64,000 nt of DNA from Rhizobiaceae bacterium CPCC 101076 (GTDB lineage Bacteria > Pseudomonadota > Alphaproteobacteria > Rhizobiales > Methylopilaceae): contig QDFX01000009.1 of the NCBI GenBank assembly GCA_003347645.1, positions 104,501 through 168,500 on the forward strand. The letters run 5' to 3'. The notes under the pieces were generated by a model, which ran no database searches, was not told the DNA's origin, and saw only the letters and a list, made by a program, of their open reading frames with translations. Each line of letters opens with the position of its first letter. Within the stretch, counting starts at the first letter, position 1. Positions 10,377 to 46,219 of the stretch are shown here, in pieces. Made by a program: the position numbers and the translations under genes.

Positions 10377-12306
<1,930 letters not shown>

Positions 12307-34792: not shown

Positions 34793-35161
34793 TCAATCCA
34801 CGAGAGACGCCGCGAAGGCGCTCGCGACCCGTGCGGCGAGGTCGGCCAGCACGCGTTCCGGCTCGGCCAGGATGACGGCGACCGGATAGCGCGCGACCTC
34901 GAAGCCCAGGCGCTCGAAATAGGCGCGGCGGTCGCGGTCCTGCAGCCGGTCGACATGGGTCGGGGCGATCTCGATGATCAGCATCGGATCATGGCTGAGG
35001 AATTCGGCGGTGAACGGTCCGATCGGCACCTGACGGCGGAATTCCAGTCCGTCCATGCTTTCCTCGGAGAGCAGGGCCCAGAGTTTGCGCTCGGCGTCGG
35101 TCGGCTCCCGGCGCGCCATGCGGGCGCCGAACAGCGAGACGGGGCGGTTCACATCGACCAT
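34793..35161 (-). CDS. DUF559 (very-short-patch-like endonuclease fold) protein
   Basis: A 122-residue protein with DUF559 layout: RREPTDAERKLWALL at the N terminus, FRRQVPIGPFTAEFLSHDPM, LIIEIAPTHVDRLQDRDRRA and LGFEVARY. In active members the sequences are usually VDF and IEIDG-QH; here these read AEF and IEIAPTH, so the first acid is Glu instead of Asp and the second loop is altered. It may be inactive or use other ligands. Role unknown; such genes are scattered singly in alphaproteobacteria. Confidence 0.8.
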   Translation of the reverse strand: MVDVNRPVSLFGARMARREPTDAERKLWALLSEESMDGLEFRRQVPIGPFTAEFLSHDPMLIIEIAPTHVDRLQDRDRRAYFERLGFEVARYPVAVILAEPERVLADLAARVASAFAASLVD

Positions 35162-38596: not shown

Positions 38597-38821
38597 TCAG
38601 CCGCACCTCGGATAGTCGATGCGCTCGAAGGTCTGGAAGCCGATCCCGTGGCGGTGGGCGCAGCTGAACTCGCTGGCCAGCGCGCTGATGCGGCTCGCCT
38701 GCTGCGCCGGCGAGCCGTCGACGTTCTCGTCCAGCCATTCGTCGGGCACGGTCAGCTTCATGCCCGGCTTCAAAAGCATCAGAATCCGCGTCAGTTCCTG
38801 GCAGTCCAAGGGTGCCTCCAT
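38597..38821 (-). CDS. small hypothetical protein
   Basis: A 74-residue protein (LDCQELTRILMLLKPGMKLT, VPDEWLDENVDGSPAQQASR, CAHRHGIGFQTFERIDYPRC) with three Cys and two His in the second half and beginning. ATG at 38821 is preceded by GGAGGCACCCTTGG-like purine-rich sequence at imperfect distance. Similar short proteins seem to be common in Bradyrhizobiaceae; function unknown. It is the last GC-rich gene before the AT-richer insert. Confidence 0.6.
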   Translation of the reverse strand: MEAPLDCQELTRILMLLKPGMKLTVPDEWLDENVDGSPAQQASRISALASEFSCAHRHGIGFQTFERIDYPRCG

Positions 38822-38907
38822 GTGGTGCGGGGAGGGCTATAGCATTGAGGGGCGGGGAGTCTATCGCCGACTACCCTAGGCGGAAGAAACGAGCGAAGAG
38901 AGGATTT

Positions 38908-39186
38908 CTACAGGGTCGCGATCACCGATAGCTTACTGGGATTCGGGTTGTACCCTGGACGGGGAATAGAGAAATTCTCTTCCGTGAGCTCCAGATCGCC
39001 CATGCGATTTAGATGGAAGTCCCTCCAACCTTCGCCGCTGCCCCCAGTTAGTTGCCACGCACAAAGCGTCAACACTCCCGATTTGGAGCGACCGAGGGTG
39101 TGAGGCTCAGCAACTCTCCGAGAGCCATCGTATGCAAATGACACGAGTCTTCTTTCGTCGATGGCTATTGATAGGATCGCCTCCAT
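38908..39186 (-). CDS. small WYL-like domain protein, divergent to the OLD nuclease
   Basis: A 92-residue protein that looks like a lone WYL domain: AIDERRLVSFAYDGSRRVAE, PHTLGRSKSGVLTLCAWQLT, GWRDFHLNRMGDLEL. WYL domains bind nucleic acids or nucleotides and often control defence genes (CapW/BrxR), but those also have a winged helix, which is absent here. ATG at 39186 has GGAG seven bases upstream. It is transcribed away from the OLD gene across a 62-base spacer and shares its lower GC, so the two probably moved together. Regulation of the nuclease by this protein is inference. Confidence 0.65.
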   Translation of the reverse strand: MEAILSIAIDERRLVSFAYDGSRRVAEPHTLGRSKSGVLTLCAWQLTGGSGEGWRDFHLNRMGDLELTEENFSIPRPGYNPNPSKLSVIATL

Positions 39187-39248
39187 TGAAAGCTCCTTTG
39201 AGTTGCGCTCTCGTATAGCTGGCAACCGAAAATCAGATTCGGGGCGGC

Positions 39249-41153
39249 ATGCAAATCGGGGCGGTTACTATCGAGAATTTCCGTTCTATCCAGAACCTGC
39301 GCTTGGAATTAATGAGCCACAGTGTTGTTCTCGGATCAAACAACGCTGGTAAATCGACCGTATTAAAAGCCATTGATTTGTTCTTCGAGTCAGCGCCGAG
39401 GCTAACTATAGCAGACCATTATTTTAGCAATTCCAACTTGTCGATCGTTATTACGATAGAGTTCCGCAGATTTACACCAGCGGAAAGAGACGAGTTTGCA
39501 GGTGCAGTAATCAATGACGTGATGACGGTGTCTAGAGAGTTGTCGGCTACAGACCGTGATAGCGGCCTATACTCAGTCACGGCCCTAGTGAATCCGGCTT
39601 TTGATGAGTTTCGCAACGAGTCAAACGGTACCCGTAAGAGGGGCATATATGGCCGGATTCGAGAAGATTTTGGTCTCCCCTCACACCAGACCGCCGACGA
39701 TATGACGGCGGCTTTAATCGATTGGGAGCGCAATAATCCGGGGACCTTAGAGCCCAGAAGAATGAGAGGTTTCTTCGGCGCAACGAACGTTGCTAACGGC
39801 AAACTGAAAAAGCGAACGCTCGTGCGACTGATACCTGCCGTGAGGGAAACAGCTTCGGAGTTTCAGGACCCAAAAAGAAGCCCCGTTCTTGGATTGCTTT
39901 CTGACATAGCAAATCAAGTGTTCCAGAACCGTCGAGAGCTTGCGGAATTTGTAGATCGTGCTCGTGAGGAGGCGAGAGTATTAACTGATCCAGAAGGTAT
40001 TCCTCAGCTTCAAAATATAAGTGATGATCTAACGCGTTCAATTCATCGATTTTACAGTGATACCTCGTTGGAGGCGGAGTGGATCGCTGCGGAGCCTTTG
40101 CAGATTGTATTTCCAACACCGAAAGTCGTTATCTCCCACAGAGGAGCCAGAGTTAGCGTCGAGTATGTAGGTCACGGTCTTCAGCGAGCCGTTCTGTTTG
40201 CGATTGTGCAGTTTCTAGCAGAGCGCCAGAGTTCATCGACGGAACGGAGTAGCGAGCAGTATTCGGAGCCGCTTAGTGACATCATTTTAATGATAGAAGA
40301 GCCTGAAATATATCAGCATCCACTAAAGCAAAAGCAAATTTACGACGCCTTTAAAGAGATATGCTCTTCGTTCGATCCTGGCACAGGTATTCGTATACAA
40401 ATTATATATACAACCCATTCCGAAAAGCTTATTAGCATGGGAGAATTCGACTCCATTCGAATAATACGGAAGGATGTCGCCGGAGAGTCTTACCTAACCC
40501 GATGCACATCGCTGTCGCTGCAAGAATGTAGCCGACTAATGGCAACGGCAGCGAATAAGCCAAATCCGATGCCTCCGACGACATTGGCGGCTAAACTACA
40601 CATCTTCACTCGCGATGTGTCAGAAGGATTTTTTGCGGAGAAAGTAGTGTTGGTCGAGGGCGGTACAGACAAAGCAATTCTTGAGGGCGCTTATAAGTCT
40701 ATGGATAGGAATCCAGCCGCAGAAGGTATTTCGATTATCGCCATGTCTGGAAAAACAACTATCGATAAGCCGTTCCTGATATTTTCTCAACTGGGCATTC
40801 CTACTTATGCGGTTTTTGACAATGATGCCAACAAGTCGGGAAGGAAGCAGCACCGAGATAGTAACGTGTTGCTTCAAAGACTGGGTGGCGTCCAGGAGCC
40901 AGAGGATTTTCCCGAAGGAGTCTTCGACAGGTTTGCCGTTATCCCGGGTGACCTAGAGCGCTACCTCTCGACGGTCCTCGGAAATGCCCATGACGAACTT
41001 ATGGGTGGCGTTTGCGAGGAGTTTGAGCTGGGCTACGATGATCTGAGAAAGACGCCGCAGGCGGTGTCTGCGCTTCTGGTGTCGGCGACAGCGCGAAATT
41101 TTCACTTCCAGCACCTTACCGACATCATCGAAGCGGTCGATCGCTTGAACTAA
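39249..41153 (+). CDS. OLD-family ATP-dependent nuclease (ABC-type ATPase + TOPRIM)
   Basis: A 634-residue protein with an SMC/ABC-type ATPase and a C-terminal TOPRIM nuclease. Walker A is GSNNAGKST (residues 29-37), a signature-like VGHGLQRAVLFA lies near 305, Walker B IILMIEEPE near 343, the H-loop TTHSE near 388. TOPRIM motifs are VVLVEGGTDKAILEG (near 466) and FDNDAN (near 523). OLD proteins cleave or exclude phage DNA and include P2 Old and GajA of Gabija. No UvrD-like partner (GajB) or reverse transcriptase follows, so a class 1 stand-alone type is likely. GC is clearly lower than in neighbours (for example 21 of 60 in 40381-40440 against 39 of 60 in 41581-41640), a sign of transfer. 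Confidence 0.88.
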   Translation: MQIGAVTIENFRSIQNLRLELMSHSVVLGSNNAGKSTVLKAIDLFFESAPRLTIADHYFSNSNLSIVITIEFRRFTPAERDEFAGAVINDVMTVSRELSATDRDSGLYSVTALVNPAFDEFRNESNGTRKRGIYGRIREDFGLPSHQTADDMTAALIDWERNNPGTLEPRRMRGFFGATNVANGKLKKRTLVRLIPAVRETASEFQDPKRSPVLGLLSDIANQVFQNRRELAEFVDRAREEARVLTDPEGIPQLQNISDDLTRSIHRFYSDTSLEAEWIAAEPLQIVFPTPKVVISHRGARVSVEYVGHGLQRAVLFAIVQFLAERQSSSTERSSEQYSEPLSDIILMIEEPEIYQHPLKQKQIYDAFKEICSSFDPGTGIRIQIIYTTHSEKLISMGEFDSIRIIRKDVAGESYLTRCTSLSLQECSRLMATAANKPNPMPPTTLAAKLHIFTRDVSEGFFAEKVVLVEGGTDKAILEGAYKSMDRNPAAEGISIIAMSGKTTIDKPFLIFSQLGIPTYAVFDNDANKSGRKQHRDSNVLLQRLGGVQEPEDFPEGVFDRFAVIPGDLERYLSTVLGNAHDELMGGVCEEFELGYDDLRKTPQAVSALLVSATARNFHFQHLTDIIEAVDRLN

Positions 41154-41521
41154 TAGTCCCACCTTAAAATCCCTCCAAATCCCGCTTGTGTTCCAAAACT
41201 GTTTCGCGTAGGTTCTGCCGCGCAATAGGACAGTCTTGCTGTCCATTTGTTTCCAGGCGCAAGCGCGTTACCCTGTCGGACTCGGTGAACGGGACCGGGC
41301 GGGGTTTTGCCGCCTGGTTTTTGCCGGGCCCGTGCGTAAGGCACTGCCATTGCGGGGTTGGCGAGACGTTTGCATTGCAGGGTCGGCCCTTAAGGGCCGC
41401 TTGGCGGGCAGGCGAGGGGTTGGGGATTGCCGCGGCCGAACGGGCTTGCCCGTGACGGACCCGGGTCCTGGGATATTTTTACGCCCGTGGGTGTTTCACC
41501 CATGGAGCGGGAGGACAGGCG
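41154..41521. other. 368-base leader region upstream of gltB
   Basis: No gene found. The left part up to about 41260 has the lower GC of the insert, the rest is GC-rich. A loose repeat (CACTGCCATTGCGGGGTTGGC and GTTTGCATTGCAGGGTCGGC) lies at 41341-41391, and GGCCCTTAAGGGCC (41385-41398) is a perfect palindrome. These may be part of the gltBD promoter or of a leader RNA. GGGAGGA precedes the gltB start. Confidence 0.5.
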
Positions 41522-44500
41522 ATGGTGAAGAAGCTTCTGGACGAGAGCACGCTGCCGTGGGGGCCGTTGGCCGCCGCCGCGCGCGACCCCGGAATGCCGC
41601 AGCGCGAAGGCCTCTACGATCCGAAGAACGAGCACGATTCGTGCGGCGTCGGCTTCATCGCGCATATGAAGAACGTGCCCTCGCACGACATCGTCGAGAA
41701 GGGCCTGGCGATTCTCGCCAATCTCGAGCATCGCGGCGCGGTGGGCGCCGACGAGCGCGCCGGCGACGGCGTGGGCGTTCTGGTCCAGATTCCGCACAAG
41801 TTCCTGAAGGCGCGCTGCGCCGAGCTCGGCTTCGACCTGCCCGAGCCGCAGCAATATGCCGTCGGCCATGTGTTCATGCCGCGCGACGCCGAAGGCCAGC
41901 GAATCATCCGTGAAACATTCGCCCGCGTCTTCGTCGAGGAGGGCCTGAGCGTCCTTGGCTGGCGCGACGTGCCGACCGACAACTCGACCCTCGGCTATTC
42001 GGTGCTGCCGACCGAGCCGCACCACGCGCAGGTCTTCATCGGCCGTCCGGAAGGCTTCGCCACCGACGACGACTACGAGCGGCGGCTCTATGTCGCCCGC
42101 AAGCGCGTCTCGAACACGATCTTCGGCGAAAACGACCCGCGCACGAAGGGCTATTACATCCCGTCGCTGTCGTGCCGGACGCTCGTCTACAAGGGCATGT
42201 TCCTGTCGGACCAGATCGGCGTCTATTACCCCGACCTCCGGCACCCGGAGTTCGAGTCGGCGCTGGCGCTCGTCCATCAGCGGTTCTCGACCAACACCTT
42301 CCCGAGCTGGCAGCTGTCGCACCCCTACCGGATGGTCGCGCACAACGGCGAAATCAACACGCTGCGCGGCAACGTCAACTGGATGGCGGCGCGTCAGGCG
42401 TCGGTCTCCTCGCCGCTGTTCGGCGAGGACATCGAGAAGCTGTGGCCGATCTCCTACGAGGGGCAGTCGGACACCGCCTGCTTCGACAACGCGCTCGAAT
42501 TCCTGGTCCAGGGCGGCTACTCGCTCGCGCATGCCGCGATGATGCTGATCCCGGAAGCCTGGGCCGGCGACCCCCTGATGGAGGAGCAGCGCCGCAACTT
42601 CTACGAATATCACGCGGCGCTGATGGAGCCGTGGGACGGCCCGGCGGCGATGGCGTTCACCGACGGCCGCCAGATCGGCGCGACGCTCGACCGTAACGGC
42701 CTGCGCCCGGCGCGCTATTTCGTGACCACCGACGACATCGTCGTGATGGCCTCCGAAATGGGCACGCTGACGGTGCCGGAAGAGAAGATCGTCACCAAGT
42801 GGCGCCTGCAGCCCGGCAAGATGCTGCTGATCGACCTGCACGAAGGCCGCATCATCTCCGACGACGAGGTGAAGGCGCAGCTTGCCGCCGCGCATCCCTA
42901 CAAGGACTGGCTGGCGAAGACGCAGATCCAGCTGGAGAGCCTCGACAAGGTGTCGTCGGCGCCGGACTGGCAGAGCGACGTGCCGCTGCTCGATCGCCAG
43001 CAGGCGTTCGGCTACACCCAGGAAGACCTGTCGCTGCTGATGGCGCCGATGGCCGTGACGGGCCAGGAAGCGGTCGGCTCGATGGGCACCGACACGCCGA
43101 TCTCGCCGCTCTCGCTGAAGCCGAAGCCGCTCTACACCTATTTCAAGCAGCTGTTCGCGCAGGTCACCAACCCACCGATCGACCCGATCCGCGAGGAACT
43201 GGTGATGTCGCTGGTGTCCTTCATCGGACCTCGGCCGAACATCCTCGACCATGAGGGAACGGCGGAGAAGAAGCGCCTCGAAGTCCACCAGCCGATCCTG
43301 ACCAATGCGGATCTGGAGAAGATCCGCCACATCGAGGACCAGGAGCCGGACTTCTCGGCCGTGACGCTCGACATCTGCTGGCCCGCCTCCGAGGGCGCCG
43401 CCGGGATGGAGAAGGCGGTCGAGGCGCTGTGCCGCGAGGCAGAAAAGGCCGTCGACGAGGGCCGCAACATCATCATCCTGTCGGACCGCAAGGTCTCGAA
43501 GGACTGCATCGCGATCCCGGCGCTGCTCGCGACCGCGGCCGTTCACCATTACCTGATCCGCAAGGGTCTCCGGACCTCGGTCGGCCTCGTCGTCGAGACC
43601 GGCGAAGCGCGCGAAGTGCACCACTTCGCCTGCCTCGCAGGCTATGGCGCGGAAGCGATCAACCCGTATCTCGCCTTCGAGACCATGCTGGAGATGCACC
43701 GCGCGGGCGAATATCCGCCGGAGGTCTCCGAGTACGAGGCGGTGTCACGCTTCATCAAGTCGATCGGCAAGGGCCTGCTCAAGGTCGCGTCGAAGATGGG
43801 CATCTCGACCTACCAGTCCTATTGCGGCGCGCAGATCTTCGACGCGGTCGGCCTGCAGTCCGACTTCGTGGAGAAGTATTTCCGCGGCACCTCGGCCCCG
43901 ATCGGCGGCATCGGCATCAACGAGGTCGCCGAGGAGACGGTGAAGCGCCACGAACAGGCGTTCGGCCCGATCCAGATCTATCGCCACGCGCTCGATGTCG
44001 GCGGCGAATATGCATTGCGCATGCGCGGCGAGGACCATGCCTGGACCGCGGACACGGTGCGCGACCTGCAGCATGCCGTGCGTGGCAACAGCGAGGAGCG
44101 CTACCGGGCGTTCGCCAGGCAGATCAACGAATGCGTCGATCGTCCGCTGACGATCCGCTCGCTGTTCGACTTCAAGACCGCCGAGAGCGACGGCCGCGCG
44201 CCGGTTCCGCTGGAGGAGGTCGAGGACGCGGCATCGATCGTGCGGCGCTTCGCGACCGGTGCGATGTCCTACGGCTCGATCAGCCGCGAGGCGCACACCA
44301 CGCTCGCGATCGCCATGAACCGGATCGGCGGCAAGTCGAACACCGGCGAGGGCGGCGAGGAAAGTGATCGCTTCAAGCCGCTGCCGAACGGCGACACGAT
44401 GCGCTCGGCGATCAAGCAGGTGGCCTCGGGACGCTTCGGCGTGACGGCGGAATACCTCGTCAACGCCGACATGATCCAGATCAAGATGGCGCAGGGCGCG

Positions 44501-46219
44501 AAGCCCGGTGAAGGCGGCCAGCTGCCCGGCCACAAGGTCGACGCGGTGATCGCCAAGGTCCGGCATTCGACGCAGGGCGTCGGCCTGATCTCGCCGCCGC
44601 CGCACCACGACATCTATTCGATCGAGGACCTGGCGCAGCTCATCTACGACCTGAAGAACGTCAACCCGCAGGCTGACGTCTCGGTGAAGCTCGTCTCCGA
44701 GGTCGGCGTCGGCACGGTCGCGGCGGGCGTCGCCAAGGCGCGCGCCGACCATGTGACGATCTCAGGCTTCGAGGGCGGCACCGGCGCGAGCCCGCTGACC
44801 TCGATCAAGCATGCCGGTTCTCCGTGGGAGATCGGCCTCGCCGAGACGCACCAGACTTTGGTGAAGAACCAGCTTCGCGGCCGCATCGCGGTGCAGGTCG
44901 ACGGTGGTCTGCGCACCGGACGCGACGTCGTGATCGGCGCCATGCTCGGCGCCGACGAATTCGGCTTCGCGACCGCGCCGCTGATCGCGGCCGGCTGCAT
45001 CATGATGCGCAAGTGCCATCTCAACACCTGCCCGGTCGGCGTCGCGACGCAGGACCCGGTGCTGAGGAAGCGCTTCGTCGGCCAGCCCGAGCACGTGATC
45101 AACTACTTCTTCTTCGTCGCCGAGGAAGTGCGGGAGATCATGGCCTCGCTCGGCTACCGGAACTTCGACGAGATGATCGGCCAGATGCAGATGCTGGACC
45201 GCACCCGCGTCATCGAGCACTGGAAGGCGCAAGGCCTCGACTTCTCGCGCATGTTCCAGAAGCCGGTCGCGGAAGAGGGCATCTCGATCCGCCACACCGA
45301 GCTGCAGAACCATCACCTCGAAACGGTGCTGGATCGCGGCCTGATTGCCGACGCGCAGCCCGCGCTGGTGAACGGCGAAAAGGTGCTGATCGAGACCTCG
45401 ATCCGCAGCCTGAACCGCTCGGCGGGAGCGATGCTCTCCGGGGAGGTGGCAAAGCGCTACGGCCACAAGGGCCTGCCGGACGACACGATCCTCGTGAAGA
45501 TGACGGGCACCGCCGGCCAGGCCTACGGCGCGTGGCTCGCGCAGGGCGTCTCGTTCGAGCTCGAAGGCGAAGCCAACGACTATGTCGGCAAGGGCCTCGC
45601 GGGCGGCCGCATCGTCGTCAAGCCGCCGGCGAATTCGGGCATCGTTCCGGAGCAGTCGATCATCGTCGGCAACACGGTGCTCTACGGCGCGATCGCGGGC
45701 GAAGTGTATTTCCGCGGCGTCGCCGGCGAGCGCTTCGCCGTCCGCAACTCCGGCGCCATCGCGGTCGTCGAGGGCACCGGCGACCATGGCTGCGAATACA
45801 TGACCGGCGGCGTGGTCGTCGTTCTCGGCAAGACGGGCCGCAACTTCGCGGCCGGCATGTCGGGCGGCGTGGCTTACGTCTGGGACGAGGACGGCACGTT
45901 CAAGGACCGCTGCAACATGTCCATGGTCGAGCTCGAGCCGGTCGCCGAGGAAGAAGAGCTGATGCAGCGCGTGCATCACCAGGGCGGCGATCTCCTGTTC
46001 AAGGGGCGTGTCGAGCTGATGAGCAACATGACGGCATTCGACGCCGAGCGGCTGATCCAACTCATCGTCAATCACGAGCGCTATACGGGCTCGGCCCGGG
46101 CACGTGCGATTCTCGACGACTGGGCGAACGCCCGCTCGAAGTTCGTGAAGGTGATGCCGGTCGAATATCGCCGCGCGCTTGCCGAAATGGCCAAGCGCGA
46201 ACTGGTCGCGGCGGAGTGA
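41522..46219 (+). CDS. gltB: glutamate synthase (NADPH) large subunit
   Basis: Transfers the amide nitrogen of glutamine to 2-oxoglutarate, giving two glutamate. The 1565-residue protein has a 40-residue propeptide before the nucleophile Cys41 ([12 protein letters not shown]) of the class II amidotransferase domain, a central domain, the FMN-binding synthase domain ([27 protein letters not shown] near 1085, [13 protein letters not shown]) and the 3Fe-4S cysteines in [13 protein letters not shown] (near 1165), then the C-terminal beta-helix with Gly-rich repeats ([15 protein letters not shown]). Length is standard for GltB. The stop overlaps the GST gene by four bases. Confidence 0.97.

Follow-up and report, generated by a model that had tools for sequence, protein, structure and literature searches.

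What a low-GC pair of genes, one encoding an OLD-family nuclease and the other a lone WYL-domain protein, is doing immediately upstream of the glutamate synthase gene gltB, and whether the two belong together, is the question raised by the window, by which we mean the whole stretch of 64,000 nucleotides analyzed here. The reading that we favor, and to which we assign a probability of roughly 0.5, is that OLD and the lone WYL protein make up a small, acquired defense-type cassette in which WYL would serve as a protein-level sensing or licensing subunit, both the slot beside OLD and the genomic site being exchangeable.

The low-GC insert holding the two genes spans window positions 38908-41153 [Table 1]. 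GC content ranged from 0.45 to 0.55 between about 38750 and 41250, compared to 0.61-0.69 (about 0.65) over most of the flanks, in agreement with the earlier note, which had described an acquired module of two genes lower in GC than both flanks and facing apart over 62 bases; both ORFs were found where it had placed them. OLD and WYL genes were both missing from the three congeners, and OLD yielded remote matches only, in two of the 14 other genomes of the family. The presence of OLD was patchy (3/18 family genomes), with a high score solely in the window. Since OLD was absent from all three congeners and represented by just these remote matches in the rest of the family, the locus is, judging from its distribution, an acquired one rather than the vertically conserved locus that the earlier note had allowed for. 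Comparison with related strains, proposed as a way of finding an empty site, confirmed the absence of the genes from the congeners but did not return a clean empty site because all congeners hold other cargo there. As had also been reported, no integrase or recombinase was seen at the locus and no convincing att-type repeats flanked the cassette; scans of the cassette revealed neither a tRNA nor an Rfam match. The best flanking repeat, considered as an att site, measured 12 bp (92%) and was judged to be due to chance. The short intergenic region is the only intergenic room available for the promoters and control sites of both genes, which would otherwise lie inside genes, and a promoter scan found no match to the sigma-70 consensus in it.

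Table 1 Features of the OLD-WYL insert and its surroundings (window positions)
Feature	Position	Strand	Basis or remark
74-aa gene, left flank	38597..38821	-	homologues in G002, G003
Lone WYL-domain protein, 92 aa	38908..39186	-	ATG at 39186; Pfam WYL
Divergent intergenic region between WYL and OLD starts	39187..39248	.	62 bp
OLD-family ABC ATPase + TOPRIM nuclease, 634 aa	39249..41153	+	Pfam, PADLOC, motifs
Conserved gltB upstream block, right hotspot boundary	41165..41326	+	congener homology
Palindrome GGACAG-N5-CTGTCC	41228..41244	.	conserved upstream of gltB; outside insert
gltB-type glutamate synthase large subunit	41522..46219	+	vertically inherited right flank

By its sequence, the identity of the OLD protein is unambiguous and its catalytic motifs are intact. 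It matched the Pfam family AAA_15 (5e-38), the OLD-like TOPRIM family PF20469 (6e-19) and the PADLOC Old model (8e-57), and many PADLOC GajA models matched it as well. The ATPase motifs comprise Walker A (residues 29-37), the signature GHGLQRA (308-314), Walker B EEPE (350-353) and H390, of which G29..K35-S36, GHGLQRA, EEPE and H390 were invariant across the OLD alignments, as were the TOPRIM residues E470, D474, D524 and D526; E570 was also listed among the latter. A predicted model (pLDDT 82) most closely resembled the structures of TsOLD (6p74, the best PDB match) and GajA. Ten matches to the OLD profile were found among viral contigs. The OLDs nearest to that of the window (42-47% identity; L104-L111 and G208) have neither a WYL nor a KTSC neighbor, suggesting that an OLD of this type can work without a small partner.

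The WYL ORF appears to be a real gene since it is preceded by a ribosome site (AAAGGAG, 39199-39193, ending 6 nt before the ATG) and has full-length homologues of 38-52% identity in many genomes. Its match to Pfam PF13280 was a narrow pass (E-value 8.6e-5; 22.9 bits with the cutoff at 21.8), and a scan of genome contigs with the window WYL sequence alone returned no match. As the earlier note had it, the protein carries no winged helix, and neither Pfam nor the predicted model revealed any other DNA-binding domain. The AlphaFold2 model (pLDDT 93.8, pTM 0.85) consists of one helix followed by six strands and is confidently predicted to be an Sm-like barrel. PDB searches by sequence, with the single WYL or a WYL profile, were too weak, and it was the fold search that gave matches: the best Foldseek hits in the PDB were the C-domain of DriD bound to ssDNA, BrxR and PafBC, all with a probability of 1.00 and weak E-values (0.003), followed by Sm/Hfq proteins. 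Lone WYL proteins of 92-100 residues turned out to be a widespread family in bacteria and archaea of which the window protein is a typical member. Its earlier description as a divergent minimal WYL protein thus does not stand, nor does the notion of an odd truncated repressor, repression not being the favored role of a protein that has no DNA-binding domain.

Many lone WYL genes occur without OLD, and they also adjoin IS1595 transposases, SbcCD-like genes and housekeeping genes. Four of them (L184, L185, L187 and L188) lie near IS1595-type transposase ORFs, that of L184 being confirmed by Pfam, and it is because of this proximity that lone WYL genes may be suspected of traveling as passengers. 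Further lone WYL genes lie near resolvases. Nearly identical lone WYL genes reside on two haloarchaeal plasmids (L061 and L063), one of them adjoining a resolvase and near an integrase. Pairs resembling SbcD/SbcC (a metallophosphatase and a Rad50-like ATPase) recur beside lone WYLs and OLDs alike (L062, L073, L115, L154, L156, L157 and L192). The WYLs nearest to that of the window (G057, G113 and L185) have no OLD nearby, relatives' flanks having been covered over at most 5 kb and sometimes ending with the contig; on this ground, the pair in the window was probably put together recently.

The co-occurrence of small WYL genes with OLD genes, which the earlier note had proposed as a check, was found to recur. 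WYL and OLD were searched for separately in 347 genomes of the order, two of which contained both genes, as neighbors in either case: divergent and 37 bp apart in G144, and separated by a DUF2130 gene in G183. WYL lies downstream of OLD in a genome of the class sample, G440. These three immediate neighborhoods, which come from genomes sampled without regard to the pair, compare with about 5e-4 expected from gene frequencies, an expectation that ignores clustering in defense islands. Of nine plasmid records encoding a lone WYL, two place it next to an OLD, namely one from Rhodococcus qingshengii and the Deinococcus plasmid pDrdII, where the AAA protein next to WYL carries an OLD TOPRIM domain. 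When 80 relatives of OLD were selected on no other basis than OLD sequence, with a search profile that included the OLD of G440, ten had an adjacent lone WYL gene (five divergent, one of these truncated [L130], three co-directional upstream and two downstream), and most had none. At least seven changes of the WYL label were required on a tree comprising 90 OLDs. As gauged from these frequencies, the adjacency of OLD and WYL is far above chance.

The arrangement of these loci bears on the possibility that the lone WYL is a transcriptional regulator acting on OLD at a divergent promoter region, in the way that CapW and BrxR act on their defense genes. WYL repressors of defense operons are well established (PMC9122601), and the gaps of several divergent loci are very short (62 bp in the window and about 30-40 bp elsewhere). 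The modeled 92-residue protein, however, is a helix and a barrel with no winged helix or other domain for binding DNA, whereas BrxR has additional wHTH and dimerization domains, and the co-directional loci, with WYL upstream or downstream of OLD, indicate that a divergent operator is not needed. Because of the missing domain and the varying arrangements, we consider repression unlikely.

The commonest small neighbor in the set of 90 OLD loci, as revealed by clustering of neighbors, was not WYL but a KTSC-domain protein (Pfam PF13619) of about 62-87 residues, exemplified by the gene at L116:4786-4992. It was present at 25 of the 90 loci and beside 24 of the 80 sequence-picked relatives, mostly 4-12 bp upstream of OLD on the same strand, such that a tiny WYL or KTSC gene adjoins OLD in 34/80 relatives. 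The two were never found together (25 KTSC and 14 WYL among 90 loci; Fisher p 0.007, a value uncorrected for ancestry and coming with too few independent pairs on the tree). Near relatives of OLD differ in partner, with KTSC in L183 and WYL in L120, and again KTSC in L127 and WYL in L152; L150, a member of the window OLD's own clade, has KTSC. Since neighboring lineages differ in this manner and the nearest OLDs of the window have neither gene, we read the accessory slot beside OLD as optional and exchangeable between WYL and KTSC.

The site itself is variable within the genus. On its right, gltB is 84-86% identical in congeners and 65-75% across the order, and homology to the congeners resumes about 41165, 12 bp past the OLD stop, in an upstream block that is 78% identical over 166 nt to G003 and also found in G001 and G002. 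The palindrome within this block precedes gltB in the majority of the family and in parts of the order, with invariant arms and a variable spacer. The idea that the conserved block past OLD serves as an attachment site was rejected; because the palindrome is also present upstream of gltB in relatives devoid of cargo, it is to be viewed as gltB control DNA, probably an operator or a hairpin. On the left, the 74-aa gene has a homologue about 6.4 kb upstream of gltB on the same contig in G002 and on another contig in G003. It shares with the genes at 35.2-37.2 kb, which we take to be of the DUF1236 type, the property of having relatives upstream of gltB in congeners. Each of the four genus members carries low-GC defense-type cargo of its own, which in every case stops at the conserved gltB upstream block, and the cargo of the congeners has a GC content of 0.49-0.55: a trypsin-like protease, a 174-aa protein and a ThsB-like TIR protein in G001, a GajB-like UvrD helicase without GajA in G002, and a PDC-M41A/B pair in G003. 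The interval between hsp20 and gltB measures about 0.7-2.4 kb in sister genera, compared to about 11 kb in G001, 14 kb in G002 and 58 kb in the genome of the window. By this comparison, the site upstream of gltB is a genus-level hotspot for defense-type cassettes, and recombination between shared flanks would most simply account for the exchange, no integrase having been seen.

The records in which cassettes were located at this place are L204, L202 and L205, beside window 38850-41520. Apparent VapBC genes occupy the same place in two records from sister genera (L014 and L015). An 83-nt direct repeat, 83% identical (L204:10390-10472 and 11452-11534), flanks the trypsin-like gene in the G001 cargo, and DUF559 (REase-like) genes lie nearby both in the window (34793-35161) and in G002 (L202:6918-7367).

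Such a hotspot is what would be expected if OLD and WYL were unrelated passengers that meet often in defense islands and mobile elements, and the mobility and promiscuity of lone WYLs, with transposase and resolvase genes near some of them, point the same way, as does the fact that the closest relatives of each window gene lack the other. A hotspot nevertheless leaves the choice of WYL over other small genes unexplained, and immediate adjacency was seen in at least seven inferred changes and in three different arrangements, with hosts ranging from Xanthomonadaceae to Rhodococcus and Deinococcus, with KTSC as the alternative in the same slot, mostly within a few base pairs of OLD; we therefore give this explanation little credence. 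We find it quite improbable that WYL inhibits OLD in the manner of an antitoxin and is removed only upon infection: the expression of OLD proteins can be toxic, as noted for YbjD and P2 Old (PMC13261556), and a tiny gene beside a toxic nuclease recalls a toxin-antitoxin layout, but WYL was gained and lost in the inferred ancestry of OLD, and an obligate antitoxin is not needed in a subfamily of which many close members persist with no such partner. That OLD works in DNA repair or housekeeping rather than as a defense effector is likewise hard to credit, for even if the archaeal class 5 OLD Cran1 is a cell-cycle protein (PMC12796447) and repair-type SbcCD-like genes adjoin several OLD relatives, the window OLD is patchily distributed, low in GC and located at a site that it shares with TIR, GajB-like and PDC-M41 cargo.

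Returning to the sensing or licensing reading, control of the nuclease by the small protein is probable because the same pairing, or KTSC in the place of WYL, recurs in unrelated bacteria. The effector of the cassette would be the OLD ATPase-TOPRIM nuclease, with the lone WYL barrel acting on it at the protein level. The ligand bound in the WYL pocket would derive from the infection and probably be ssDNA, an RNA fragment or an oligonucleotide; ligand-bound WYL would shift the OLD ATPase dimer into another state, and the TOPRIM nuclease might then cut DNA or tRNA and abort the infection. In other lineages, the KTSC-domain protein would fill the slot of WYL. The location of the cassette, with the DUF1236 gene region on one side and the gltB control block on the other, would be a site of exchange within the genus, at which one small defense cassette may take the place of another, most simply by homologous recombination in shared flanks. 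We infer the WYL-OLD interaction, the ligand, the target, the anti-phage outcome and the mode of cargo exchange. WYL domains are known to bind ssDNA, ssRNA and other charged ligands and can act directly on enzymes (PMC9122601, PMC4012209): the WYL domain of PIF1 couples ATPase activity to unwinding (PMC9122601) and Cas13d, in the description given there, is stimulated by WYL1 (PMC9122601). A KTSC protein partners a HerA ATPase and a nuclease (PMC9503650), and P2 Old has been reported to cleave host tRNA upon RecBC inhibition (PMC13261556). More tentatively, and with somewhat less confidence than even odds, a large branch of OLDs could represent an undescribed two-component class in which an interchangeable, tiny nucleic-acid-binding protein, WYL or KTSC, acts as sensor of infection or as specificity subunit and decides when the nuclease fires and what it targets.

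Standalone defense by class 1 OLDs, their regulation and the number of OLD classes are open questions of the field (PMC10568477). Swappable WYL and KTSC partners of supposedly standalone OLDs would, if confirmed, offer a direct handle on the trigger and suggest a role for two families of small proteins that lack one, and the gltB site would be a place to look for more small defense cassettes in these genomes. OLD classes 1-5 have been described without a WYL- or KTSC-type partner (PMC10568477, PMC12796447), and no description of an OLD-WYL or OLD-KTSC pairing was found in the literature searched, subscription papers lying outside that search. In PADLOC 2.0, WYL proteins were matched by generic WYL models and one AbiEii model only, with no OLD-WYL system and no system for KTSC proteins. 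The suggestion that OLD and a lone WYL form an undescribed pair thus holds in that the pair recurs and was found neither in PADLOC 2.0 nor in the OLD papers, but not in the sense of an exclusive partnership, KTSC often standing in for WYL.

Among known systems, the window OLD resembles the class 1 proteins (P2 Old, the Thermus scotoductus OLD 6P74 and YbjD/OldB) in being a single-chain ABC ATPase and TOPRIM nuclease and in lacking an adjacent UvrD helicase, reverse transcriptase or split TOPRIM, its neighboring ORFs being WYL, small ORFs and gltB. Class 1, however, is defined as standalone (PMC10568477, PMC12796447), whereas the OLD described here has a recurrent adjacent WYL. With GajA (class 2) it shares the enzyme fold and motifs, but the locus is not a Gabija system, no GajB UvrD-like helicase being encoded between 38240 and gltB. 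PARIS (AriA/AriB, class 4), whose AriB cleaves host tRNA after the sensing of Ocr (PMC12839542), and retron Eco8 (class 3) likewise rely on an OLD-type ATPase regulating a TOPRIM nuclease; unlike in those systems, ATPase and TOPRIM are fused here, with no reverse transcriptase or Rfam match. The WYL Sm-like barrel is the same as in BrxR, CapW, PafBC and DriD, regulators linked to defense or DNA damage, from which the window protein differs by its small size and by having neither winged helix nor C-terminal extension. WYL1 of Cas13d would be a parallel in being a separate WYL protein that, as described in PMC9122601, modulates a nuclease instead of a promoter; its nuclease and target are different. 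OLD-WYL is, on these comparisons, a variant of OLD systems and possibly a new class.
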